Below, in pieces: positions 41,883 through 56,778 of a stretch of DNA of 64,000 nt. A program made the position numbers and the translations under genes. The notes below the pieces were generated by a model. That model ran no database searches, was not told where the DNA came from, and saw nothing but the letters and a program-made list of their open reading frames with translations. Numbering within the stretch: position 1 is the stretch's first letter; every line of letters starts with the position of its first letter. Origin of the DNA: a methanotrophic endosymbiont of Bathymodiolus puteoserpentis (Logatchev) (lineage in GTDB: Bacteria > Pseudomonadota > Gammaproteobacteria > Methylococcales > Methylomonadaceae); the NCBI RefSeq assembly GCF_900128525.1, contig NZ_FQTQ01000190.1, positions 1 through 64,000 of the forward strand. Direction: 5' to 3'.

Positions 41883-42245
41883 ATGGCTAGCATACTAGCA
41901 GTTGATGATTCAGCATCAATGAGACAAATGGTCGCCTTTACCTTAAAAGGCGCTGGTTATACAGTTGTTGATGCTGTAGATGGTATAGATGCACTTAATA
42001 AAGCAAAAACACAAAAGTTTGACTGTGTAGTAACTGATGTGAATATGCCAAATATGGACGGCATCACATTAATTAAAGAGTTAAGAGCCTTACCTAATTA
42101 CAAGTTTGTCCCTATGTTAATGTTAACCACAGAATCTGGTATGGATAAAAAGCAACAAGGTAAAGCTGCAGGCGCAACAGGTTGGATCGTTAAACCTTTT
42201 AACCCTGATCAGTTATTAAAGACTATAAAAAAAGTTTTAGGCTAG
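41883..42245 (+). CDS. cheY: Chemotaxis response regulator CheY
   Basis: The 120-residue single receiver domain has the acidic pair in AVDDSAS, the phosphorylation site D52 (CVVTDVNMPNMDG), the switch Thr (LMLTTE) and the Lys in WIVKPFNPD. It carries the signal from CheA to the flagellar motor or another output. First gene of the cluster, 116 bases before cheA. Confidence 0.95.
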   Translation: MASILAVDDSASMRQMVAFTLKGAGYTVVDAVDGIDALNKAKTQKFDCVVTDVNMPNMDGITLIKELRALPNYKFVPMLMLTTESGMDKKQQGKAAGATGWIVKPFNPDQLLKTIKKVLG

Positions 42246-42361
42246 ACAGTAAGTTTAGGTTTGCATTCTCAAAGCTTAATAGGTCAAGGTTGGGTTATAT
42301 AGTGATATAAACAATAAGGTCGGCTGGTTTTTTACTTAATTTAAAGTATACAGGTTATTCA

Positions 42362-44440
42362 ATGTCAATTGATATGGCGCAGTTTCACCAGGTTTTCTTC
42401 GAAGAAAGTTTTGAAGGCTTGGATATTATGGAGTCAGGATTATTAAACCTGGATATGGGCGATGTTGATTCTGAAGTTATTAATACAATTTTCAGGGCAG
42501 CTCATTCAATAAAAGGCGGTAGCGGAACTTTTGGTTTTACTGCGGTATCGGATTTTACCCATGTGATGGAAACGCTCTTGGATGAGATGCGTGATGGGCG
42601 CAGGCAAATCACTCAAGCGGCTGTTGATGTCTTGCTTGGTTCGGTTGATTGCTTGCGTGAAATGTTGTCGGCCATACAAGATGAAAATGATATTGATGAG
42701 GTTAGTGTCGCAGAGCATAAAAAGGCTTTGGAAATTGAGCTAAATGGTGCAAGTGGTAAGGATAATTCACCAGCCACTCCTGTTGAGTCGCCTGAAACAG
42801 TGGTTATTAAGGAGATGGAAAGTGCCACTGAAAGCGGATGGAAGATTTCTTTTTGTCCTCATGCGGATTTACTAAAAACAGGTAATGATCCTGTGCGCAT
42901 GTTTCGAGAGTTATCGGAGCTAGGTGATTTAGAGGTTATTGTTGATTTGCACGGCGTTCCAGCACTCTTTGAACTGGATCCTGAAGAGTGTCATTTGTCT
43001 TGGACTTTGATTCTTAAAGGAAATGTTAAAAGAGAAGAGATTGATGATATTTTTGATTGGGTTGAAGGTGAGTGTGACTTATCTATTCAAGAATTAAACT
43101 TAGGTGAAGCGTTAGTTAATATGCAACAGACTGAGCCTTCTAGTTTGGTTGAGCAAACAACTCCAAGTGACAGTCTAATCACTGAAAATCAGGAAAACCC
43201 TGAGCTGAAGAAAAATATTCCAACATCATCTAAACCCGTTCAAGCTAAGGAGAAAAAATCAAAAGGAGCTGCTTCGACTTCCATTCGAGTAGATACCGGG
43301 AAGATAGATACGCTCATTAATATGGTTGGTGAACTGGTTATTACTCAGTCTATGTTGAGCTTAGTCGGCGAACATTTCTCCCCTGACAAAATCGATCACC
43401 TAAAAAATGGCTTAGTGCAATTAGAAAGACACACGCGTGAGTTACAAGAAAGTGTCATGAATATCCGCATGCTACCCATCAGTTTTGTCTTTAGTCGCTT
43501 TCCTCGGCTGGTACATGATTTGAGCACTAAGCTGGATAAAAAAATTGAGCTAAAGTTAGTCGGTGAACATACAGAAGTTGATAAAACAGTTGTTGAACTT
43601 ATTAGTGATCCGCTGGTTCATTTAGTACGTAATAGTTTGGATCATGGTATTGAAATGCCCGCTGACCGAATTGCCGCCGGCAAGCCTGAAGTGGGTTTGA
43701 TAACTCTAGAAGCTTACCATCGGGGAGGTAATATTGTTATCGAGGTAAAAGATGATGGGAAAGGGCTAAATAAGGATTTTTTACGCAACAAAGCAATAGA
43801 AAAAGGGCTTTTAGACCCAGATGCCGTACTAACTGATAAGCAATGTTATGAACTGATATTTATGGCTGGATTTTCAACAGCAGAAAAAGTAACTGATGTT
43901 TCAGGGCGTGGCGTAGGCATGGATGTGGTACGCCGAAATATCCAGTCTTTAGGCGGGAATATTGAGATAACATCTCATTTAGGGGTTGGTTCAACTATAT
44001 CAATTAACTTACCTTTAACCTTAGCTATTTTAGATGGGCAGTCTATTGCTGTGGGAGATGAGACATTTATTGTGCCACTTGGCTCTATTATTGAGTCCAT
44101 TAAAATTAACGATAATATGGTTAATCGTGTCGCTGGAAAGGGCGAGACATTTCGCTTGCGTGATGAATATCTGCCTATAGTACGAATGCATCATGTTTTT
44201 AATGTTAAATCAGCTAAAGCAACTAAATTAACCGAAGGCTTATTAGTTGTTGTTGATGGGCAAGGCGTACGCTGTGGCTTGTTTGTCGATGATTTATTAG
44301 GCCAACAACAAGTGGTTATTAAGTCGTTAGAAGCAAACTATCGGCGTGTGGAGGGGGTATCAAGTGCAACTATACTGGGTGATGGTTCAGTTGCGTTAAT
44401 TTTGGATATTCCTGGTTTAGTACGTTTATCAAATCAGTAA
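42362..44440 (+). CDS. cheA: Chemotaxis histidine kinase CheA
   Basis: The 692-residue kinase has an N-terminal Hpt domain with H48 (AAHSIKGGSGTFGF), a second ferredoxin-like domain (about 155-245) for response-regulator docking, a linker, the dimerisation helix, the HATPase domain (HLVRNSLDHGIE, DDGKGLN, GRGVGMDVVRRNI) and a C-terminal CheW-like domain. It phosphorylates CheY and CheB under receptor control. Confidence 0.97.
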   Translation: MSIDMAQFHQVFFEESFEGLDIMESGLLNLDMGDVDSEVINTIFRAAHSIKGGSGTFGFTAVSDFTHVMETLLDEMRDGRRQITQAAVDVLLGSVDCLREMLSAIQDENDIDEVSVAEHKKALEIELNGASGKDNSPATPVESPETVVIKEMESATESGWKISFCPHADLLKTGNDPVRMFRELSELGDLEVIVDLHGVPALFELDPEECHLSWTLILKGNVKREEIDDIFDWVEGECDLSIQELNLGEALVNMQQTEPSSLVEQTTPSDSLITENQENPELKKNIPTSSKPVQAKEKKSKGAASTSIRVDTGKIDTLINMVGELVITQSMLSLVGEHFSPDKIDHLKNGLVQLERHTRELQESVMNIRMLPISFVFSRFPRLVHDLSTKLDKKIELKLVGEHTEVDKTVVELISDPLVHLVRNSLDHGIEMPADRIAAGKPEVGLITLEAYHRGGNIVIEVKDDGKGLNKDFLRNKAIEKGLLDPDAVLTDKQCYELIFMAGFSTAEKVTDVSGRGVGMDVVRRNIQSLGGNIEITSHLGVGSTISINLPLTLAILDGQSIAVGDETFIVPLGSIIESIKINDNMVNRVAGKGETFRLRDEYLPIVRMHHVFNVKSAKATKLTEGLLVVVDGQGVRCGLFVDDLLGQQQVVIKSLEANYRRVEGVSSATILGDGSVALILDIPGLVRLSNQ

Positions 44441-44452
44441 TACGAAACAGTA

Positions 44453-44974
44453 ATGACTCAAGAAACTGATACACAAGAACTAGAAGAAACTCAGCTTGAG
44501 AACTCTATGCAGTTTTTAAGCTTTACTCTGGGTGAAGAAGAATACGGTGTTGATATATTAAGTGTTCAAGAAATACGCAGTTGGGAGCCTGTTTCTAGAA
44601 TACCTAATGTACCCAGTTATGAAAAAGGAGTGGTGAATTTACGAGGTGCTATCGTTCCGATTATTGATTTACGAGAAAGATTTAACTTAGAGCATTCTGA
44701 ATATACTAACTTAACCGTTGTGGTTGTTTTGCAGACAATTTTACAAGGTAGAAGTCGTACTATGGGGCTTGTTGTTGACTCGGTTTCTGATGTCAATAAT
44801 ATTGATCTGCAATCAATTCAAAGTGCACCTGATTTTGGGACAAAAGTTAGTACCGAATTTATTAGTGGCTTAGCATTAGTTGAGGAGCGAATGCTAATAC
44901 TACTCGATGTTAAAAAATTATTGAAATTAGATGGTGTGGACGATGCTGCAGAGGATGATAATGATGAAAGTTAA
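44453..44974 (+). CDS. cheW: Chemotaxis coupling protein CheW (first copy)
   Basis: The 173-residue protein has a CheW fold (YGVDILSVQEIRSWEPVSRIPNVP, VNLRGAIVPIIDLRERF, VSDVNNIDLQSIQ) flanked by acidic tails. It bridges receptors and CheA. A second copy follows the receptor gene at 47465. Confidence 0.95.
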   Translation: MTQETDTQELEETQLENSMQFLSFTLGEEEYGVDILSVQEIRSWEPVSRIPNVPSYEKGVVNLRGAIVPIIDLRERFNLEHSEYTNLTVVVVLQTILQGRSRTMGLVVDSVSDVNNIDLQSIQSAPDFGTKVSTEFISGLALVEERMLILLDVKKLLKLDGVDDAAEDDNDES

Positions 44975-45016: not shown

Positions 45017-47371
45017 GTGAAAGTTAACATGCCTGTGACTGAGAATGAAGTCATGATGAAAGACGGGACTATATTAGTTACGCGTACTAATTTAAAAGGC
45101 GTTATTACTTATGCCAATGATGCTTTTGTTGAAATAAGTGGGTTTTCTTATGATGAATTAATTGGTAAAAATCATAATATGGTAAGGCATCCGGATATGC
45201 CAGCGGTTGCTTTTCAGGATTTATGGGAATCTGTTAAGGCATTGAGGCCCTGGTCTCAACTAGTTAAAAACCGAACTAAATCAGGTGATTATTATTGGGT
45301 AGAAGCACATGTTACACCTGTTTATAAACAAGGGGTTCCTGTTGAATATCTTTCTGTTCGTTATGCACCTAGCCGTGCACAGGTTAATGAAGCAGATACT
45401 TTTTATCGGGAGTTAAATGGCCGTCGCGCAACAACGATTAGACCTGTTGGTTTAGCAAAAGTAATAAAAGCAATTAAAGAAATTTCGATCAATAAAAAAG
45501 CGGGAATGATTGCAGGCGCATTTCTTTTACCTAATATTTTTTTAATGAAGCAGTTTTATGATGCCCAACAACTATTACCACTTGCAATAGTCGCTTTGCT
45601 CTCTACTTTAGCTTGTATATTAGGGTATAGGTTGGTACGTGATGTCACTGGCTCCTTGGGTAAAGCAACTAATATGTGTTATCAAATGACGGATAATAAT
45701 TTCCGAAATAAGACAGATATTGATCGTAATGATTTAATTGGTGATTTCAATCGAGCACTGTATGGCATGCAAGTTAAATTAAATGCAGACATGGCTTATA
45801 TGAAACAAACAGGGAGTGAGTCTTTACGTATTAAACAAGCATTAGATAATGTCAGCTCTTGTGTCATGGTGGCGAATACTAATCTGGAAATCATTTATAT
45901 GAATGATACCGTGAAAAGTATGTTCAAAAATGCTGAGAAAGATATACAGCAGCAATTACCTAATTTTGATGCAGATAAGCTTTTAGGGGCTAATATTGAT
46001 CAGTTCCATAAAAATCCAGCTCATCAAAGAGGCATGGTGCCTAATTTACAAGGTACTTTAACATCGGAATTAGTCATTGGCTCACGACATATGAATTTTG
46101 TTGCTAACCCTGTTTTAGATGAAAGCGGAAGTCGAATTGGCACGGTAGTTGAGTGGTTGGATAGAACGCATGAAGTTAAAATAGAAAAAGAAATTGAAAA
46201 TTTAGTTGAAGGCGTTAAAACAGGGAATTTATCTGCTCGGATTGAAATGGCAGATAAAGACGGTTTCTTTGAAAAGCTAAGTCAAGGAATTAATGAATTA
46301 ACAGATGGTATCGAAGGCGTTTTTTCGGATATTAATAATACGATGCACAGCATGGCAACAGGTGATTTATCAAATAAAATTACTAATGAGTATGAGGGGG
46401 TTTACGATGACTGTAAAGGCAGTATAAATGCCACGATCGATAAATTAGCGGATACTGTAGGACAAATAAGAGAGTCGGCGGATTTTATTAATAATTCCTC
46501 ACAAGAGATTGCCAGTGGTAATAATAACTTATCTGAGCGTGTAGAAGCGCAAGCGGCGAGTTTGGAAGAAACAGCTTCGAGCATGGAGGAGCTGACTAGT
46601 ACCGTTAAAAATAACGCAGATAATGCCCAACAAGCTAATCAGGTAGCGAGTAGTGCTAGAGAATTGGCAGAAAAAGGTGGCACAGTCGTTATTTCAGCAG
46701 TTAATGCAATGGCTGAAATTAATGAAAGTAGTAATAAAATTGCTGAAATTATTGGTGTTATCGATGAAATTGCCTTTCAGACGAATTTACTTGCCTTAAA
46801 TGCTTCCGTTGAAGCAGCAAGGGCAGGTGAGCAAGGGCGTGGATTTTCTGTTGTAGCGACTGAAGTGCGTAATCTAGCACAACGTAGTGCCGCCGCTGCA
46901 CGTGAAAGTAAAGAGCTAATTCAAACCAGTATACAAAGAGTACGTACAGGAACTGAGTTCGTTAATGAGACAGGTGTATCATTAAATGAAATTGTCGGAG
47001 GCGTGAAAAAAGTCGGTGATATTATTTCTGAAATTGCGGCGGCTAGTATTGAGCAGTCTCAAGGAATTGAACAAGTTAACCAAGCTGTTTCAGAAATGGA
47101 CGAAATTACTCAGCAGAATGCCGCTTTAGCTGAAGAAGCTTCAGCAGCAAGTGTATCTATGAGTGACCAATCGACTAATATGATTAATTTATTACAATTC
47201 TTTAGTTTTAATGGGGCACCAAGTCCAGTAAATAGAGCCGTTGATCAACAGGCTCCCCCTCCAGTTTCCCCCAAACCTACTCTGCATAGGATGAATAAAT
47301 CACAAGCAAAAGACATGGTAGGAAAGTCTTTTGTAGAAACAAGTGAGGATGATGAGTGGGATGAGTTTTAA
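45017..47371 (+). CDS. Methyl-accepting receptor with Aer-like PAS domain
   Basis: The 784-residue receptor starts with a PAS domain close to the FAD-binding one of Aer (NHNMVRHPDMP, then VKNRTKSGDYYWVEAHVTP). Next come a membrane hairpin (about 162-205), a second PAS-like region (about 278-390), HAMP-type segments and the kinase-control tip LLALNASVEAARAGEQGRGF. There is no periplasmic sensor, so it likely reads redox or oxygen from the cytosol. The C terminus EDDEWDEF fits the xWxxF peptide that docks CheR/CheB. Start is GTG with AAGGAG before it. Confidence 0.92.
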   Translation: MKVNMPVTENEVMMKDGTILVTRTNLKGVITYANDAFVEISGFSYDELIGKNHNMVRHPDMPAVAFQDLWESVKALRPWSQLVKNRTKSGDYYWVEAHVTPVYKQGVPVEYLSVRYAPSRAQVNEADTFYRELNGRRATTIRPVGLAKVIKAIKEISINKKAGMIAGAFLLPNIFLMKQFYDAQQLLPLAIVALLSTLACILGYRLVRDVTGSLGKATNMCYQMTDNNFRNKTDIDRNDLIGDFNRALYGMQVKLNADMAYMKQTGSESLRIKQALDNVSSCVMVANTNLEIIYMNDTVKSMFKNAEKDIQQQLPNFDADKLLGANIDQFHKNPAHQRGMVPNLQGTLTSELVIGSRHMNFVANPVLDESGSRIGTVVEWLDRTHEVKIEKEIENLVEGVKTGNLSARIEMADKDGFFEKLSQGINELTDGIEGVFSDINNTMHSMATGDLSNKITNEYEGVYDDCKGSINATIDKLADTVGQIRESADFINNSSQEIASGNNNLSERVEAQAASLEETASSMEELTSTVKNNADNAQQANQVASSARELAEKGGTVVISAVNAMAEINESSNKIAEIIGVIDEIAFQTNLLALNASVEAARAGEQGRGFSVVATEVRNLAQRSAAAARESKELIQTSIQRVRTGTEFVNETGVSLNEIVGGVKKVGDIISEIAAASIEQSQGIEQVNQAVSEMDEITQQNAALAEEASAASVSMSDQSTNMINLLQFFSFNGAPSPVNRAVDQQAPPPVSPKPTLHRMNKSQAKDMVGKSFVETSEDDEWDEF

Positions 47372-47442: not shown

Positions 47443-47464
47443 AGCTAATGATTAGGAAGTGAAT

Positions 47465-47959
47465 ATGGCTAATGACGCTATGGGTAATCAATCGAATATG
47501 AGCGGACAGTATTTGACTTTTGATTTAGCAGGAGAAATGTATGGCGTTGAAATCTTGAAGGTACAAGAAATTCGAGGTTGGGAAAAGGTGCGTAATATTC
47601 CTAATGCGCCAGATTATATTAAGGGAGCACTAAATTTGCGCGGAGAAGTCGTCCCTATCATTGATTTACGCGTACGTTTTGCAATGGAAAATAGGGAGTT
47701 CACCCCCGTTACCGTGGTTATTATTTTGTGTGTTGAATCTGAGCAAGGGACTAATGTTATTGGTGTTGTTGCAGATGCGGTTTCGGATGTTTTAGATATT
47801 AAATTAGCAGATATTAAAGAAAAACCAAATTTAGGCAGCAAAATTGATACCCGCTTTATGCGTGGTATTTATGTGTATAAACACAATATGATTATGCTTT
47901 TAAATGTCGATAAGCTACTTAACCCTGATGAGTTTGAAGGATTACCTAGTTTATTATGA
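47465..47959 (+). CDS. cheW: Chemotaxis coupling protein CheW (second copy)
   Basis: This 164-residue CheW keeps the core motifs (YGVEILKVQEIRGWEKVRNIPNAP, LNLRGEVVPIIDLRVRF, VSDVLDIKLADIK). I prefer the ATG at 47465, which has AGGAAG at a proper distance; a GTG two codons earlier sits too close to it. The stop overlaps the parA start by four bases. Two different CheW proteins allow distinct receptor groups to be coupled. Confidence 0.94.
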   Translation: MANDAMGNQSNMSGQYLTFDLAGEMYGVEILKVQEIRGWEKVRNIPNAPDYIKGALNLRGEVVPIIDLRVRFAMENREFTPVTVVIILCVESEQGTNVIGVVADAVSDVLDIKLADIKEKPNLGSKIDTRFMRGIYVYKHNMIMLLNVDKLLNPDEFEGLPSLL

Positions 47960-48717
47960 GTGTTAGAGTGGTTGCTATTATTAATCAAAAAGGGGGCGTT
48001 GGTAAAACGACTACCTCGACGAATCTCACGCATGCTTTAGCTAAAAAAGGCTATAAAGTGACTGTTATTGATCTAGACCCACAAGGGCATTTAGCGGTCT
48101 CTTTTGGGGTAACATCGCCTCAGATTAATGGTGTTGATGCAGTGATGTTAGATGAAAAAAATATTGAGCAGCAGGTGATTGCAGCACGTGATAATTTGCA
48201 ACTTATTGTTGCAGGCCCAAGGCTGCAAGAAATTGAACAGTTGACCGATGGCGGTGCGCAACGAGGGGATTTATTGCGCAAAGCATTGCATGAGAATTTA
48301 CAAGACCAAGATTTTGTTTTTGTTGATTGTCCACCTTCATCGGGTGTATTGGTCGCAAATGCATTATTTGCAGCGGATGAGGTTTTAATTCCGATGACGA
48401 GTGACTTTTTGGCACTACAAGGTTTGTCGCATTTAGTTGCTACTTTAAAGCGCTTTGAAAGTGCATTAAAGAAAAAATATAAAATCTCTTTAGTGATGTC
48501 TCGCTATGTAACGACAAGACGTATATCTAAAGAAGTTTTAAATACTATGTTAAAACATTTTCCCAATCAGGTACTAGCGACTGTTATTCGAGAAGCTTCG
48601 GTATTAGCCGAGTGTCCTAGTTTTGGTAAAACAATTTTAGAGTATCGACCTGGAAGCCGTTCAGCACGAGATTTTCGTGATTTAGCGAATGCTTTTCTTG
48701 AAGGTAAGGTGATGTAA
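47956..48717 (+). CDS. ParA family ATPase of a chemotaxis cluster (ParC type)
   Basis: The 253-residue protein has the deviant Walker A KGGVGKTTTSTNL near residue 11 and the Walker B VFVDCPP. In Vibrio and Pseudomonas a ParA-like ATPase in the che operon (ParC) places the chemoreceptor array at the cell pole. It overlaps the second cheW and abuts the next gene, so the same role is likely. No ParB or plasmid-type centromere is near. Confidence 0.93.
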   Translation: MSVRVVAIINQKGGVGKTTTSTNLTHALAKKGYKVTVIDLDPQGHLAVSFGVTSPQINGVDAVMLDEKNIEQQVIAARDNLQLIVAGPRLQEIEQLTDGGAQRGDLLRKALHENLQDQDFVFVDCPPSSGVLVANALFAADEVLIPMTSDFLALQGLSHLVATLKRFESALKKKYKISLVMSRYVTTRRISKEVLNTMLKHFPNQVLATVIREASVLAECPSFGKTILEYRPGSRSARDFRDLANAFLEGKVM

Positions 48718-49203
48718 ATGACGACAAAAAATAAAGACAGTTTAATTGGTTTTGACCCACTTGCCTGGATCAATGACGATGATAAACCACCAGATCAAGA
48801 AGAAACCTTGGTCGAGCAAGCCGTTGACAACGCAAGCGTCGATAAGCCAGAGAATGAAGTTTTAATTGCTGAAGTAAGCAATCAAATATCGGAAGTTAGT
48901 GAGTTTATAGATAATTCAAAAATTCTCTTAGAGAATACCCTCAATATTAGTACAGTGGCAGAATTACATAGTCAGTTAGTACAAGCTTTACAAGGTAATG
49001 AATGTTTAGAAATTGATGCTGCGAATGTGAATAGTATTGATACTGCAAGTTTACAGTTGTTTGTTGTTTTAAAGCAGGAGGCACTCAAGTTAAATAAGGA
49101 TATTATTTTTGATTTTCCATCGGATAAATTTATAGAAGCGGCGAAATTGCTAGGTATCGATAATATGCTAGGGGTTGATCAGGCTGCTGCTGGTTTTTTC
49201 TGA
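48718..49203 (+). CDS. STAS domain protein with N-terminal extension
   Basis: The 161-residue protein has an acidic N-terminal region with the motif GFDPLAWINDDD (about 11-22), a linker, and a C-terminal STAS domain (about 75-161) with the signature INS(I)DTASLQLFVVLKQEA. Its ATG abuts the parA stop. I suspect it links the ParA ATPase or CheA with partner-switch proteins, but this is inference. Confidence 0.75.
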   Translation: MTTKNKDSLIGFDPLAWINDDDKPPDQEETLVEQAVDNASVDKPENEVLIAEVSNQISEVSEFIDNSKILLENTLNISTVAELHSQLVQALQGNECLEIDAANVNSIDTASLQLFVVLKQEALKLNKDIIFDFPSDKFIEAAKLLGIDNMLGVDQAAAGFF

Positions 49204-49232: not shown

Positions 49233-50063
49233 ATGGAAAAACAGCGTGAATTTAACTATACCCGAGCAGATTTTGAGGTTTTGAGAAAAATATCAAATAG
49301 TCATTCCGGCATTATTGTTACAGATGATAAGTTTGATATGTTTTATTCTCGCTTATCAAAGCGGATAAGAATGCTAGGCTTAAGGGATTTTCAGGAATAT
49401 TGTCAGTATTTAAAAAACAACGAAGCACATGAGTTTACAGAATTTATTAATGCGATCACGACAAATTTAACTGCTTTTTTTCGTGAAAATCACCATTTTG
49501 AGTATGTAAAAAATACGATTATCCCTGAATTACTTAAACGTAATCATATGAGTAGGGAAATTAAGGTATGGTCTGCTGGCTGTTCTACTGGAGAAGAGCC
49601 TTATTCTATCGCGATGACATTATTGGAAAACTTACCTAAGGACTGGAATGTAAAGATTTTGGCCACAGATTTAGATACGAATGTTTTACAAACTGCTGCA
49701 ACAGGTATTTATGGAGATGATCGTGTCAGTGGTTTATCAACAGATCGCTTAAAAAGATGGTTTAAAAAAGGCATTGGCAGGAATGCGAGTAAAGTAAAAG
49801 TTAAACCTGAACTACAAGCCTGCATTCGTTTTAAACAACTTAATTTGATGAATGAATGGCCTATGAAAGGGCATTTTGATTTTATTTTTTGTCGTAATGT
49901 AATTATTTATTTTGATCGAGATACAAAGGAAAAGCTCGTTAATCGTTACAGTACTTTATTATTTACAGGCGCACATTTATTAATTGGTCACTCGGAGTCT
50001 TTACATCAAATTGAGACTGATTTTGATTTAATTGGTAATACTATTTATCGAAAAATAAGATAA
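49233..50063 (+). CDS. cheR: Chemotaxis protein methyltransferase CheR
   Basis: The 276-residue enzyme methylates receptor glutamates using S-adenosylmethionine. It has the N-terminal helical domain, the binding loop VWSAGCSTGEEPYS, FDFIFCRNVIIYFD and HSESLHQI. The beta-subdomain that binds the receptor xWxxF peptide is present. Confidence 0.96.
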   Translation: MEKQREFNYTRADFEVLRKISNSHSGIIVTDDKFDMFYSRLSKRIRMLGLRDFQEYCQYLKNNEAHEFTEFINAITTNLTAFFRENHHFEYVKNTIIPELLKRNHMSREIKVWSAGCSTGEEPYSIAMTLLENLPKDWNVKILATDLDTNVLQTAATGIYGDDRVSGLSTDRLKRWFKKGIGRNASKVKVKPELQACIRFKQLNLMNEWPMKGHFDFIFCRNVIIYFDRDTKEKLVNRYSTLLFTGAHLLIGHSESLHQIETDFDLIGNTIYRKIR

Positions 50064-50118
50064 AAAGCATACAATTTCTCATCACACATGGACACGTTGA
50101 TGTAGGATACACTAGAAA

Positions 50119-50835
50119 ATGCAGCGCAACATTTACCTTGATTTTTCGAGCTTAATTATTCAAACGTCAGTAGATAATGAGACATTACAAAAATACGTTA
50201 TTATGAATGAAAATATAGCCCCCCCTTCAGTTGAAGGGTTTGAGTCAATAAAACGTTACTGGGATAAACAAAATAATATTGTTACTGCCAAAGTATTACC
50301 TGGCGAGTATTATGTAACTAGGGAAAATGAACTTATTACCACTGTCCTGGGTTCTTGTATTTCAGCTTGTATTCGCGATCCTATCTCCGGTATAGGTGGT
50401 ATGAATCATTTTATGTTGCCTGAAACAAGCAAAGCGCGATTACAAGCGGGTGATGAGGCGGTTGTGGGTAATGCTACGCGTTATGGAAATTATGCCATGG
50501 AGCATTTAATTAATATTATTTTATCTAACGGTGGTAAACGAAAAAACCTTGAAGTTAAGTTATTTGGCGGCGGCAAAATTATCCCAACTATGAGTGATGT
50601 GGGAGCAAGAAATATACAGTTTGTATTAGATTATGTCGATGCTGAGGCTTTGCGATTGCTTGCCCAAGATTTAGGCGATATTTATCCACGTAAAGTGAAC
50701 TATTACCCCCAAACGGGTAAAGTTAAAATGAAAAAAATTCAAGATATACATAATGAAACGCTTGCTATTAGAGAGAAGCGATACTTTAATAGTATTAAAG
50801 ATATGCCTGTTGAAAGTGATATTGAATTATTTTAA
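50119..50835 (+). CDS. cheD: Chemoreceptor glutamine deamidase CheD
   Basis: The 238-residue protein has the CheD active site: the cysteine in TTVLGSCISACI and the histidine in GGMNHFMLPE, which deamidate receptor glutamines. It carries an N-terminal extension of about 55 residues; a later ATG at 50203 is possible but has no ribosome site. The C terminus SDIELF resembles the tail of the second receptor. Confidence 0.93.
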   Translation: MQRNIYLDFSSLIIQTSVDNETLQKYVIMNENIAPPSVEGFESIKRYWDKQNNIVTAKVLPGEYYVTRENELITTVLGSCISACIRDPISGIGGMNHFMLPETSKARLQAGDEAVVGNATRYGNYAMEHLINIILSNGGKRKNLEVKLFGGGKIIPTMSDVGARNIQFVLDYVDAEALRLLAQDLGDIYPRKVNYYPQTGKVKMKKIQDIHNETLAIREKRYFNSIKDMPVESDIELF

Positions 50836-50848
50836 GGGAATATGTTAG

Positions 50849-51937
50849 ATGGAAAAAATACGCTTATTAATTATTGATGATTCAGCACTTATTCGTACGA
50901 TGTTGAGCAAAATATTTGAGTCTTCAGCTGCAATTGAGGTCGTTGGGACTGCTGCAGACCCTATTATCGCCAGAGATAAGATTAAGAAACTAAAACCTGA
51001 CGTTTTAACTTTGGATATTGAAATGCCGCGTATGGATGGGCTAACTTTTTTGCGTAATTTAATGCGCTTAAGACCTATGCCGGTGGTTATGATTTCCACT
51101 CTAACTGAGAAGGGTGCTGAGGTAACTTTAGAAGCGCTAGCTATAGGCGCTGTCGATTTTGTTGCTAAGCCAAAAGTAGATGTGGCCAATACACTGAATG
51201 CCTACGCCGAAGATTTAATTGCAAAAGTTAAAGCAGCAGCTAAAGCAAATGTACGATCTGGATCTAGCTCAGTCAGTAATCAAAGCAATCATAAACAGGC
51301 AGCTAATATTTCTACAAAATTAAACATCCAAGATAAACAAGCGACGACTCCGAAAAAACATTTTGTTACTACGGAAAAAATTATTGCTATAGGTTCATCG
51401 ACAGGGGGAACAGAAGCGGTTAAAAATGTAGTAAAAGGTTTACTAACAACAACCCCTGCCATTGTTATTACCCAGCATTTACCCATTGCTTTTAGTGCTT
51501 CTTTTGCTAAGCATGTTAATGAGGTAACTGAAATGAAAGCCTGTGTTGCTGAAGAAGGCCAAGTGATTAAGTCAGGGCATATTTATATTGCGCCAGGAGA
51601 TAGGCACTTACTCGTGATTAGGCATGGTACACATTATGTCTGCCAGTTAAATGATGGCCCGCTTGTGAATAGGTTTAAGCCTTCTGTGGAAGTGATGTTT
51701 CGTTCCATCGCACAAAATGTTGGCAGTAATGCCATAGGTGTCATGCTTACAGGAATGGGAGCCGATGGTGCTGTGGCGATGAAAGAAATGCGTGATGCTG
51801 GATCAACAAATATCATTCAAGATGAAGCCAGTAGTGTCGTATGGGGTATGCCAGGCGAAGCTTATCGCCAAGGTGCAGCGCATTATGTACAGCCTCTCGA
51901 TCAAGTTGCTGCACAAATACTTGCGTTAGTTAAATAA
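50849..51937 (+). CDS. cheB: Chemotaxis methylesterase CheB
   Basis: The 362-residue protein has a receiver domain with D56 ([12 protein letters not shown]) and a C-terminal methylesterase with the Ser-His-Asp triad seen in [17 protein letters not shown] and [10 protein letters not shown]. It removes receptor methyl groups when phosphorylated by CheA. AAGGGA precedes the ATG. Confidence 0.96.
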
Positions 51938-51950
51938 TCTGGAAATTAAA

Positions 51951-53156
51951 ATGTCGCTTTTTTTGAAAAAAATCATTTGGCCTTTTTTGTTGACATTAGC
52001 TGCTTTGTTTTTGCCGCTATTTTTTTCTATAGAAACCTTGTATTGGATTGTTATTCCAAGTTTATTTGGGCTTTTCTGTGTACTTATTTATCAAGTTCAG
52101 CAAGCTAATTTTATAAAGGATGGAGAAGCTGAGGATGAAAATTCTTCTGTAGAAGGGGCAGTTGATCAGTATTTACAGACATTACAGCACTGTACTGAAC
52201 AAGAAGTTATTGATTTTGTTGGTGAGTTAGAACAAGTGAAGCAAGTTGTTTCGGATGCCGTTGTTACTATGTCGAATAGTTTTACTGAAATGCATAATCT
52301 TTCGGTTCAGCAGGCAAACGCAATGCATTCATTAGTCAATAATTTAGAAGGCACTTCTACTGAAGAAGGTGAAAAAAAATCAGTAAATTTTCAACAATTT
52401 GCAGAAGAAACTGATGGGGTTTTAGCTTATTTTATCGAGCATATTTTAGAGGTTAGTAAACAAAGCATGGAGATGGTTGCCGTTGTAAGTGATGTTGATG
52501 AGCATATGAAAAAAATTGTCGTCTTATTGGCTGATGTACAAGGTATTGCGGATCAAACTAATCTACTAGCACTCAATGCGGCGATCGAAGCAGCAAGAGC
52601 CGGCGAGGCTGGGCGTGGTTTTGCTGTAGTTGCTGATGAGGTTAGAAATTTATCTAAACATTCTGATAAATTTAGTGAAGAAATCAAGAAAGTAGTGGGG
52701 GAGTCGCGTACAAATATTAATAATGCCAAACAAATGATTGAAAAAATGGCATCAAGAGACATGAATATAGCCATTACTTCCAAATCGCATATTGACGAGA
52801 TGATGCGCGATATCGGTACGATGAATGCAAATATGTCGGTACAATTAACGCAAGTATCAGGACTTTCTAATCAAATGGAGCAAGCAGTTGGGGGTGCTAT
52901 TCGAGCTTTACAGTTTGAAGATATGGCACGCCAGCAAATCGAATTTTTACAAAGCAATGTACATCATTTTCAAGCACTCAATGACGAAGTTAAAATCGGT
53001 TTAGGAAGTTTCAAAATATCTGATATTCTGATGCAAAAAAATGAATTAGAAGCAGGGGTGCAGCGCTTTAAAGATATGCAGGCGCTATGGCAAATTAAAG
53101 AAAAGAAAACTGTTGCGCAGAACACAATGGAAGAAGGTGAGATTGATTTGTTTTAG
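51951..53156 (+). CDS. Short membrane-bound chemoreceptor without sensor domain
   Basis: The 401-residue protein has two adjacent N-terminal membrane helices (about 9-27 and 29-46) with almost no loop between them, then a signalling coiled coil with the kinase-control tip [21 protein letters not shown]. There is no periplasmic sensor, no HAMP and no xWxxF tail; it ends GEIDLF. It probably needs a separate sensor, for which the di-iron protein downstream is a candidate. Confidence 0.88.
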
Positions 53157-53211
53157 CTTATGATAGATAACTTTTACTCCTCCTTTTTCTGTTAGATACT
53201 AAGTCATGTAA

Positions 53212-53236
53212 GATGTGCTGAGGAACGAAGCGCATC
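53212..53236. repeat. GATGTGCT...AGCGCATC hairpin
   Basis: Eight-base stem with one G-U (53212-53219 with 53229-53236) and a nine-base loop, in the 182-base gap before the partner-switch genes. It could be an attenuator between the che genes and that set, or a dispersed palindrome. Confidence 0.4.
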
Positions 53237-53338
53237 ACATAAAAACTATAACCTTGATAGATCTTACTGTTGTATGGCTTATTTTGGGACTACTGTACTA
53301 CGCTAGTGAATGATTAATTAATATTTTAGGAATATAAC

Positions 53339-53644
53339 ATGACAGTTGAAGTTTTTTTAAATAAAAGTAATAACGAATTACAAGTAAAGGTTATAGGACG
53401 TTTTGACTTTAGCTTGCACCAAGATTTCCGTAAATTATCAGAACAAGCAGCGAAAGGTGTTAGTTCGATTAGTATCGACCTTGGTAGAACCGAATATGTG
53501 GATAGCTCCGCTTTAGGTATGCTTTTAGTGTTACGTGATAAAGTGAGTAACCAACAAAGTGCGATAAAAATCATCAATGCTTGCCCTGATGTCAAAAAAA
53601 TATTGATCATTGCTAATTTTGATAAATTATTTACAGTAATGTAA
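53339..53644 (+). CDS. STAS anti-sigma-factor antagonist (HsbA-like)
   Basis: The 101-residue protein is a single STAS domain with the phosphorylatable serine in YVDSSALG (S56/S57). Partner-switch antagonists of this size (RsbV, HsbA) are phosphorylated by a kinase and dephosphorylated by a PP2C enzyme. The next gene encodes exactly such a combined enzyme 19 bases away, as in the Pseudomonas hsbR-hsbA pair. Confidence 0.9.
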   Translation: MTVEVFLNKSNNELQVKVIGRFDFSLHQDFRKLSEQAAKGVSSISIDLGRTEYVDSSALGMLLVLRDKVSNQQSAIKIINACPDVKKILIIANFDKLFTVM

Positions 53645-53663
53645 AGTAAAAAAACACAAGCTA

Positions 53664-55364
53664 ATGATTTTAGAAAAAAAAACACAATATAAATCAAAGA
53701 TCTTAGTTGCAGATGATAGCCAACTGCAACGCATATTGTTAGAAAAAATATTCTCCCAAGCAGGATATAAAGTTTTTGTGGCTGAGGATGGAGATGAGGC
53801 ATTACAACTTTTTAAGAAAGAAAGGCCAGATCTTGTTGTTTTAGATATTCTGATGCCAAAAATGAATGGAATTGAGGCAGCGACTAAAATAAAGAAAATT
53901 TCAGGTACTGAGTATGTGCCTATTATTTTTATTACTGGGGATAGTCGTGAGGAATACTTGCAGTATTGTATAGATGCTGAAGGCGATGATTTTATTTATA
54001 AACCAATTAATGAATTGGTATTAAAAGCAAAAGTAAATTCTTTGTTGCGTTTTCGGCAGCTTTGTCAGAAGCAATATAGCCAAAAGCAACAGCTATTAGA
54101 ATATCAGCACAAAATGGATCAAGAGCAAGAAATTGCCGCAACATTGTATAAAAATATTGTTCACGCTGGGTTTTATGATACACCAGAAGTGAAATATCGC
54201 TTATCTCCCATGGCTTTGTTTAATGGTGATATATTTTTGGTGGCTAAATCGCCAGGTAATCAACTTTATGTTTTATTAGGTGATTTTACAGGGCATGGTT
54301 TAGCCGCCTCGGTAGGTGCTGGTCCTGCGGCAGAAATTTTCTATGGTATGACAGAAAAAGGGTTTGGCTGTAGCGAAATTATTGTTGAAATTAACCGTAA
54401 AATGCATAAATTGCTACCTGTTAATATGTTTTTAGCAGCTACGGTTGTGGTTTTTTTTCCGGATACTAACTCCATGAGCTTGATCACTTGTGGTTTACCC
54501 GATCATTATTTATTTAATCATAAGACTAAGCAGTTACAGACTATTATTTCCAAAAACTTACCTTTAGGTATTATTGATAGCTTTGTGCCCGACATGCAAC
54601 ATATGCCGATTAGCAAAGATAGCTTTTTGTACTTGTTTACCGATGGTGTTATTGAGGCTGAAAACACACAAGGTGAGCAGTTTGATGCACCTAGTGTGAT
54701 TAACAGTATTGATGGTGGTATTGATGGTTATACTGCGGTTTTAAGTGCATTAGATAAGCACACTAAGGGAATGGGGCAGCAAGATGATATTACTTTTGTT
54801 GAGTTAAACTGTAATGTTTCAGATGCTCAATGGATGCAAGTAGCAACTAAAGAAACACATAAAAAGTTACAAGCGCTTTCTTGGAAGGGATCTATGGAGT
54901 TCCAGAGCTCCTCCTTACGACATGCTAACCCCGTTCCTGTCGTGATTAATTTAATTATGGAAATTCAAGGGTTAATTGAGCACCGTGAGTCTATTTTTTT
55001 AATTGTTACTGAGTTATTTGCTAATGCTTTAGAGCATGGGTTATTAGGATTGGATTCCAAAATGAAACAAAGTGCTGATGGTTTTATGCAATATTATTCA
55101 ACTCGAGAGGAGAGGCTAGCGCAATTAAGTGATGGCTATATAAAAATGAGTTTTAATCATCAGCCGACGAAGACAGGTGGAAAATTAGTGATTAGAATGC
55201 AAGATTCTGGGCCAGGATTTGATTTTTCAAAGGTATCATCAGACTTAAAGCAGAATGAACAAAACTTTGGGCGTGGCATAAGTCTCTTATTTAACTTATG
55301 TAAGACCGTTGAGTACAGTGGTAATGGTAATCGTGTGAAAGCAGTTTATGAGTGGACTGCATAA
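53664..55364 (+). CDS. REC-PP2C-HATPase partner-switch regulator (HsbR-like)
   Basis: The 566-residue protein has a receiver domain with D61 (LVVLDILMPKMNG), a PP2C/SpoIIE phosphatase domain (about 170-395; LLGDFTGHGLAAS, FTDGVIEAE, QDDITFVEL) and a C-terminal HATPase_c_2 domain (LFANALEHG, GRGISLL). This is the HsbR architecture: one arm phosphorylates and the other dephosphorylates a STAS antagonist according to the receiver state. In Pseudomonas the route controls flagellar gene expression and c-di-GMP. Confidence 0.92.
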   Translation: MILEKKTQYKSKILVADDSQLQRILLEKIFSQAGYKVFVAEDGDEALQLFKKERPDLVVLDILMPKMNGIEAATKIKKISGTEYVPIIFITGDSREEYLQYCIDAEGDDFIYKPINELVLKAKVNSLLRFRQLCQKQYSQKQQLLEYQHKMDQEQEIAATLYKNIVHAGFYDTPEVKYRLSPMALFNGDIFLVAKSPGNQLYVLLGDFTGHGLAASVGAGPAAEIFYGMTEKGFGCSEIIVEINRKMHKLLPVNMFLAATVVVFFPDTNSMSLITCGLPDHYLFNHKTKQLQTIISKNLPLGIIDSFVPDMQHMPISKDSFLYLFTDGVIEAENTQGEQFDAPSVINSIDGGIDGYTAVLSALDKHTKGMGQQDDITFVELNCNVSDAQWMQVATKETHKKLQALSWKGSMEFQSSSLRHANPVPVVINLIMEIQGLIEHRESIFLIVTELFANALEHGLLGLDSKMKQSADGFMQYYSTREERLAQLSDGYIKMSFNHQPTKTGGKLVIRMQDSGPGFDFSKVSSDLKQNEQNFGRGISLLFNLCKTVEYSGNGNRVKAVYEWTA

Positions 55365-55409: not shown

Positions 55410-56027
55410 ATGAATAAACCGAATCATGCAAAATCTAAATTTGTAGCCGTGGCATCTATTGCTGCTGAACTAAGTGCTGTTATGCATGTGGCAAAAGAAA
55501 TTTCCTTAGCGGCTGCCAATGCTAAAGCTATTGCTTTTAGAGCCGGTGAAAAGGCAAAAGGTTTTCAACCGATTACTGATTTTATTAATGAGTTGGCTAA
55601 AGAAACGATTGAGTTAGTTAATGATATCAATGAACATGCCTTATTACTTTACCAGATGACAGTTGATGAGCATAGAATGACTGACGCATGCCATTCTTTT
55701 GAGAAAGTAGTGATATTGGCTGAAGGTGCGCCTTATGCAAGTTCATTAGATAAATCGGTGGAACTAGCGCAACAGCGTATGCAGTTTTGTCGTACTCAAT
55801 TTAGAATACACGTTAATCAACTTTTAGACCAACTCGAAGGCGTTATGCATCCTGCTAGAGCTGCGCGCGTTATTGCGGCTAACTCAAGGATTGAAGCTTC
55901 ACAAGCAGGGGAATACTTACAAAGTTTACAAGCCGTAGCAGAAAGTGTCGATAATGCGGCGCAAGTTATTCATGATAATGTGCAGCGTTGCCGAAGCGCA
56001 TTATCCATTCTTAATGTTACAGAATAG
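55410..56027 (+). CDS. Soluble, degenerate chemoreceptor-like protein
   Basis: The 205-residue all-helical protein has no membrane segment. Two stretches resemble the conserved chemoreceptor tip: AAANAKAIAFRAGEKAKGF (about 34-52) and IAANSRIEASQAGEYLQSL (about 150-168). The second has lost the GRGF end. It may be a coupling or adaptor protein that mixes with receptor arrays. I do not recognise a named family. Confidence 0.7.
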   Translation: MNKPNHAKSKFVAVASIAAELSAVMHVAKEISLAAANAKAIAFRAGEKAKGFQPITDFINELAKETIELVNDINEHALLLYQMTVDEHRMTDACHSFEKVVILAEGAPYASSLDKSVELAQQRMQFCRTQFRIHVNQLLDQLEGVMHPARAARVIAANSRIEASQAGEYLQSLQAVAESVDNAAQVIHDNVQRCRSALSILNVTE

Positions 56028-56049: not shown

Positions 56050-56778
56050 ATGAAAATGACTAAGCTTTACGATGGATCGTACCAATGGATTATGTACGGG
56101 CGGGATAAAAATAAACCTAGCAATATTATTGATACCAATCAATATATCATTCGCACGGCGAAGCGTTGCTTGGTGCTTGATCCAGGGGGAATAGAATTAT
56201 TTGCACCGATGTTAGCCGCTGTATTGCATCATGCGCCTGTAGAAGAAATTACCGATTTATTTGCCTCACATCAAGATCCGGATATTATTTCGTCCTTAGG
56301 GCTTTGGGACCAAGCTTTACCGCACGCAAAACTACATGCACCTGCCTTGTGGGAAGGGTTTTTGCGACATTTCGGTTGTGAAACGATTGAATATGTTGGT
56401 ATTCCTGATAATGGCGGCGTTATTCAATTGGATGGTGCGGATTTAAAAATTATCCCTGCACATTATTTACATTCTTCAGCTAATTTTCATATTTATGACC
56501 CAAAAGCAAAAATCCTGATGTCAGGTGATGTAGGCGCGGCATTAGAGGAGGATGGAGCTCCCATCTTTGTTGATGATTTTAATGCACATGTAGAAAAAAT
56601 GCGCTTTTTTCATCAACGCTGGATGCCATCTAACCAAGCAAAACGTGATTGGATTGATCGAGTACGTAAACTTGATATTGATATTATGGCCCCCCAACAT
56701 GGGCGAATCTTTAGAGGCGATGATGTGAATCGATTTTTAGATTGGTTTGAGTCACTACAAGTAGGAATTGCTGTTTAA
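56050..56778 (+). CDS. Stand-alone di-iron beta-lactamase-fold protein (ODP-like)
   Basis: The 242-residue protein is the metallo-beta-lactamase half of a flavodiiron protein without flavodoxin. Likely ligands are H74, D76, D78, H141, D160 and H217, whose spacing follows the flavodiiron set; the histidine after D78 is replaced by Ile79. Similar free-standing di-iron proteins (ODP) bind oxygen, and one serves chemotaxis in Treponema. Its place at the end of the che cluster suggests an oxygen or redox sensor. Confidence 0.85.
   Translation: MKMTKLYDGSYQWIMYGRDKNKPSNIIDTNQYIIRTAKRCLVLDPGGIELFAPMLAAVLHHAPVEEITDLFASHQDPDIISSLGLWDQALPHAKLHAPALWEGFLRHFGCETIEYVGIPDNGGVIQLDGADLKIIPAHYLHSSANFHIYDPKAKILMSGDVGAALEEDGAPIFVDDFNAHVEKMRFFHQRWMPSNQAKRDWIDRVRKLDIDIMAPQHGRIFRGDDVNRFLDWFESLQVGIAV

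Follow-up and report, generated by a model that had tools for sequence, protein, structure and literature searches.

Through in silico analysis of the window, a 64,000-nucleotide stretch of DNA from a methanotrophic endosymbiont of Bathymodiolus puteoserpentis, a protein of 205 residues, here named MINI, has been found to possess two chemoreceptor tips within a single chain predicted to fold as tandem hairpins. The tips are conserved, the gene is followed directly by that of an oxygen-binding di-iron protein (ODP) homologue, and its presence is associated with an F7-like CheA. The reading we favour, with moderate confidence, is that MINI acts as a dedicated ODP partner, a single-chain pseudo-dimeric mini-receptor relaying the Fe/O2 state of ODP to CheA. 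The genes concerned are arranged in the window as follows:

41883..44974, forward strand: cheY, cheA and cheW of the F7 cluster (open reading frames; gene order as in stage-1 F7, PMC7184735)
45017..47371, forward strand: Aer2-like receptor (NF041847 Aer2, E=4.5e-154)
47459..49203, forward strand: second cheW, ParA-like ATPase and STAS protein
49233..51937, forward strand: cheR, cheD and cheB (CheD E=1e-26)
51951..55364, forward strand: McpA-like receptor, STAS protein and receiver-SpoIIE phosphatase-HATPase protein
55410..56027 (stop included), forward strand: MINI, two-tip mini-receptor, 205 aa (open reading frame; MCPsignal E=3.8e-6)
56050..56778, forward strand: ODP, oxygen-binding di-iron protein homologue (PF19583 E=2.5e-70; PDB 6qrq and 6qnm)

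The stage-1 F7 set is complete in the window (cheY, cheA, two cheW, aer2, cheR, cheD, cheB, mcpA, STAS and serine phosphatase), with the same gene content and order as published (PMC7184735). In its published form the stage-1 F7 cluster of gammaproteobacteria has the serine phosphatase as its last gene (Ortega et al. 2020, PMC7184735), and the main text of that paper does not mention ODP. In contrast, the window cluster continues directly after the phosphatase with MINI and ODP, MINI starting 45 bp after the receiver-SpoIIE-HATPase gene.

Two products of the cluster, CheD (50119-50835) and the McpA-like receptor (51951-53156), have a C-terminal tail in common. The 52 CheD relatives read all terminate in [VI]ELF, with an acidic residue almost always in front, and the 15 McpA relatives all terminate in [DE]I[DE][LM]F; the sequences of these tails suggest a common docking partner. 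The Aer2-like receptor (45017-47371) ends in EWDEF, which fits the CheR-tether pentapeptide pattern of PMC7184735.

The ODP assignment is well above the family threshold (236.7 bits against PF19583, cut-off 27.2) and extends to solved structures (6qrq, E=1e-61; 6qnm, E=2e-55). The ligand motifs HQDPD (residues 74-78), H138, D160 and H217 are retained, with H74, D76, D78, H138, D160 and H217 aligned to 6qrq. The ODP gene starts 22 bp after MINI in the window and, at a median gap of 29 bp, lies immediately 3' of MINI in 152 of 155 loci, the remaining three being contig ends; these loci include several per genome and are not 155 independent cases. The distances between MINI sequences follow those between their ODPs (r=0.91 over 49 loci), a correlation to which shared species history contributes. 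The ODPs linked to MINI form one clade (43 rows, support 100/99), whereas other ODPs (loci L144, L146, L151, L156-L159, L161-L164, L167, L168 and L173) form a separate, strongly supported clade with no mini-receptor adjoining, where flanks were read. In gammaproteobacteria, ODP thus appears to occur in two contexts or more. In two genomes (L190 and L191), another ODP lies directly 3' of a protein of about 125 residues, roadblock-like by eye, instead of a mini-receptor.

The closest named records come mostly from Methylococcales-type MAGs and isolates, and orthologues are present in many Methylococcales, where the MINI-ODP pair closes the F7 cluster, inside or beside it; at L021-L023 the pair is located at the opposite end of the cluster. 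The cultured methanotroph Methylotuvimicrobium buryatense 5G (L033) is among the carriers of the pair. Of 61 relatives, 36 give a match at E<=0.001, and about 25 of these are full orthologues. In a draw of 369 genomes across the class, 20 carry an orthologue, as do five of 398 across the phylum, all five from the same class. In distant genomes MINI and ODP form a free two-gene cassette with varied neighbours, judged by reading to be mostly housekeeping-like, and in most genomes outside Methylococcales this cassette is unlinked to che genes. Read by eye, the neighbours of the free cassettes differ from genome to genome and no recurring third partner stood out among them.

CheA is encoded by all 24 MINI genomes tested, whereas 236 of the 369 genomes of the class draw encode one. 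An F7-like CheA, defined by at least 669 bits to the window CheA (a cut-off set after the list had been viewed), is present in 18 of 20 MINI genomes and in 54 of 349 others, related genomes among those compared not being independent (Fisher 3.5e-12; 1.1e-8 among CheA-bearing genomes only). The association extends beyond the family of the window: 16 of the 18 MINI genomes outside it encode an F7-like CheA, and the 18 fall in 12 families, 10 of which have it. For ODP without MINI the association is weaker (16 of 52 against 38 of 297, p=0.002), in a set that includes some genomes later found to carry a divergent mini-receptor. One genome, G181, has the MINI-ODP pair and a single CheA, with no close F7 match.

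The divergent form has been recognised next to five ODPs, four of them first labelled as solitary and the fifth placed apart in the tree, each of which has a protein of about 200 residues directly upstream. Eight such proteins, drawn from these genomes and others, align with the MINI profile along their length (E=1e-11 to 3e-21). At L179, L180, L183, L192 and L197 the divergent two-tip mini-receptor is located between CheW and ODP in a second, non-F7-like type of che cluster, with a CheA at 433-459 bits to the window CheA and cheR/cheD/cheB alongside. An apparent MINI-ODP fusion at L165/L183 (a 453-aa frame) has been rejected, its N-terminal part being out-of-frame noise and a separate MINI-like frame being present there. 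That the same pair occurs in two kinds of che cluster argues more strongly than anything else for a role in the service of CheA, and it answers the concern that homologues might not occur near che genes. Among the three roles offered in the preliminary description (array adaptor, decoy, or link between ODP and CheA), the last is the best supported by the ODP pairing, the F7-like CheA association and the two cluster kinds, while contact with CheA or CheW is a matter of inference.

As a dedicated partner, MINI would be docked by ODP, perhaps near the base of MINI, and the Fe/O2 state of ODP, whose di-iron site takes up iron and oxygen in other systems, would alter the conformation of MINI or of its paired tips. 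These tips would be placed in the CheA/CheW layer, within an F7-type array or, in the divergent branch, within an array of a second type, and by contact with CheA/CheW would make CheA either more or less active. That oxygen and iron matter is suggested by analogy with Treponema. A more specific form of this proposal is advanced only tentatively: MINI may be a fused asymmetric receptor "dimer", stripped to two differently specialised kinase-control tips, and the soluble ODP di-iron input port of F7 arrays, providing oxygen or iron input without a receptor body, membrane anchor or methylation.

The same genomic pattern bears on a different role, in which a receptor-derived bundle has been rebuilt as an ODP-binding stabiliser or oligomerisation scaffold that has lost contact with CheA and CheW. 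ODP always adjoins MINI, che genes only in some genomes, and the tip surface is re-specialised, as described below, both of which would suit such a scaffold. However, the F7-like CheA association holds across about 10 families with unlinked genes, and the divergent form is placed between CheW and ODP in the second che cluster, so that a role confined to ODP appears unlikely.

The two tips themselves have been identified by splitting the MINI family alignment into an N-half and a C-half, each made into a profile. Against solved chemoreceptors both halves independently find a Thermotoga soluble receptor entry as their best match (E=2e-9 for the N-half, E=8e-7 for the C-half). N37 and N158 of MINI share one receptor column, that of an invariant asparagine (Tsr N381). 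The presence of two chemoreceptor tips is thereby confirmed, as had been supposed from the likeness of residues 34-52 and 150-168 to the kinase-control hairpin; the second of these intervals began about five residues early, its register-matched counterpart being about 155-173. The tips are delimited as follows:

55509..55586, forward strand: tip 1, residues 34-59 (AAANAKAIAFRAGEKAKGFQPITDFI) (half-profile match, profile-profile alignment, conservation)
55872..55949, forward strand: tip 2, residues 155-180 (IAANSRIEASQAGEYLQSLQAVAESV) (half-profile match, profile-profile alignment, conservation)

The tips are the most conserved segments of MINI and the base is variable. Tip 1 retains the equivalents of N381, R388, G390, G395 and F396 at 92-100% and has lost those of E385, V398, E402 and R404. 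Its replacements are E385 to Ile in most members, V398 to Pro (98%), A400 to Thr (98%) and E402 to Phe (90%). Tip 2 retains the equivalents of N381 and E391, of E385 (92%) and A400 (100%), and of V399 as Val or Ile, and has lost the R388 equivalent and the G393-F396 (G-R-G-F) pattern. The portions of the ancestral motif that survive thus differ between the tips, and each tip has acquired conserved residues of its own, which points to a re-specialised pair rather than decay. The earlier impression of two worn copies does not hold, since conservation is highest in the tips, which have invariant residues specific to the family. Some of the replaced positions are trimer and CheW contacts in Tsr, and with such contact positions replaced, ordinary array packing of MINI may be impossible.

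The loss of the E385, V398 and E402 equivalents keeps alive both the ODP-only role and a second alternative, in which MINI would be a decoy or damper filling CheW or CheA P5 sites without activation, the state of ODP titrating free baseplate components. A tip that keeps part of the receptor motif and replaces these residues would suit such a competitor, as would the lack of a methylation segment, which leaves no adaptation in the usual way. The replacements are nevertheless strongly conserved (Pro in 98%), pointing to a specific partner and not a weak competitor; signalling is implied by the constant presence of ODP beside MINI, although a decoy under regulation would fit as well. On balance, a damping function is regarded as rather improbable.

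In terms of family membership, Pfam MCPsignal matches MINI over residues 16-77 only, and the profile search proposed in the preliminary description thus recovers the MCP signalling domain (E=3.8e-6), though at 27.3 bits against a gathering cut-off of 34.6. The domain is matched individually by 41 of 51 MINI homologues. No membrane-like stretch is present in MINI (best 19-residue hydropathy 1.5). A methylation segment is absent, the helices of the AlphaFold2 model extending only about 37-54 residues from each turn; the methylated residues of Tsr lie about 80-100 residues from the turn. The protein is thus soluble and free of methylation segments, as first described. The full kinase-control consensus (Q374-N376, E385, R388, E391, G393-F396, V398, E402 and R404) is found in neither tip. 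Strictly, MINI is not an MCP, because it falls below the cut-off, has no methylation segment and carries an incomplete consensus; it probably acts like a minimal receptor and is not a receptor in the usual sense.

The fold has been predicted by AlphaFold2 with an alignment of 51 sequences, including relatives at 24-42% identity (pLDDT 92.3, pTM 0.84), and consists of four helices (residues 4-49, 52-103, 110-163 and 167-203):

55419..55556, forward strand: helix 1, residues 4-49, descending arm of hairpin 1 (AlphaFold2, pLDDT about 90-96)
55563..55718, forward strand: helix 2, residues 52-103, ascending arm of hairpin 1 (AlphaFold2)
55719..55736, forward strand: base loop, residues 104-109, linking the hairpins, in the least conserved surrounding segment (AlphaFold2, conservation)
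55737..55898, forward strand: helix 3, residues 110-163, descending arm of hairpin 2 (AlphaFold2)
55908..56018, forward strand: helix 4, residues 167-203, ascending arm of hairpin 2 (AlphaFold2)

A first run with 23 sequences (pLDDT 88) had drawn helix 1 straight through tip 1, a model superseded by that from the deeper alignment. MINI is accordingly predicted to form two tandem antiparallel hairpins, the arrangement whose absence would have spoken against a receptor-like protein. Helices of 37-54 residues joined by a six-residue base loop would bring both turns to one end, and the simplest reading of the model is a single chain standing in for a receptor dimer, with both tips at that end. From the helix boundaries and weak Foldseek matches we infer that the tips may pack side by side. 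These matches are to single-chain designed four-helix bundles (TM about 0.5), with receptors only further down.

That designed bundles head the Foldseek matches, and that members of the C-half also weakly match scattered other coiled-coil families, would be expected if MINI were a generic four-helix bundle whose Ala-rich heptads mimic receptors by chance. Against receptor tips, however, the two halves score 43.4 and 44.6 in profile-profile comparison, scores never approached for either half by 150 shuffles preserving the heptad phase (means 15-17, sd about 3, maximum 26). The N-half and C-half score 25.0 against each other, with a maximum of 24.3 in 150 such shuffles. The best seven PDB matches of the C-half profile are all receptors, at the tip and in register. 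Chance likeness is rejected by the heptad-phase shuffles and is close to refuted, with very little probability left to it. Weaker still is the notion of a decaying MCP gene remnant, which would explain tips short of the full consensus and is rejected with near certainty, since orthologues are intact in many families and the tip columns are conserved at 24-42% overall identity.

Relatives of the proposed arrangement are known. ODP-coupled cytoplasmic receptors without a sensor have already been described in Treponema (PMC7666581): the ODP of Treponema denticola (TDE2498) is coupled to TDE2496, a cytoplasmic receptor homologue devoid of membrane and sensing modules, which modulates CheA. MINI resembles TDE2496 in its gene coupling to ODP and in the lack of a membrane or sensing module. 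It differs from TDE2496, as the latter is described, in having only two tip hairpins per chain, in falling below the MCPsignal cut-off, and in occurring in gammaproteobacteria with an F7-like CheA. Tm14 of Thermotoga maritima (PDB 3g67, 3g6b, 3ur1 and 4jpb), the best match of both halves, is likewise soluble and devoid of a sensing domain, and its canonical methylation sites are missing (PMC12871147); a Tm14 chain has a single tip and dimerises, whereas each MINI chain carries two tips, and its helices are shorter. A polypeptide with two signalling tips is also known in the F9 arrays of Vibrio cholerae, namely the double-signalling-domain receptor DosM (PMC7534058). DosM, however, is a long rod with a tip at each end, bridging two baseplates, while MINI is a protein of about 205 aa with hairpins predicted to be adjacent, accompanied by ODP and an F7-like CheA. 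Campylobacter CheO, considered as an ODP relative, has been rejected, as it is published as being without a known sensory domain. The tandem two-tip single-chain form appears to be undescribed in the literature searched, which lacked a main ODP chemotaxis paper.

Work on receptor tips normally concerns symmetric homodimers at the ends of long coiled coils. A natural single chain with two non-identical tips would make the two protomer roles in kinase control separately mutable, and MINI may show how little of a receptor a soluble metal sensor needs for its coupling to CheA. The function of the ancestral F7 array has been described as unclear (PMC7184735); the input proposed here for such arrays is ODP, and so perhaps oxygen or iron.
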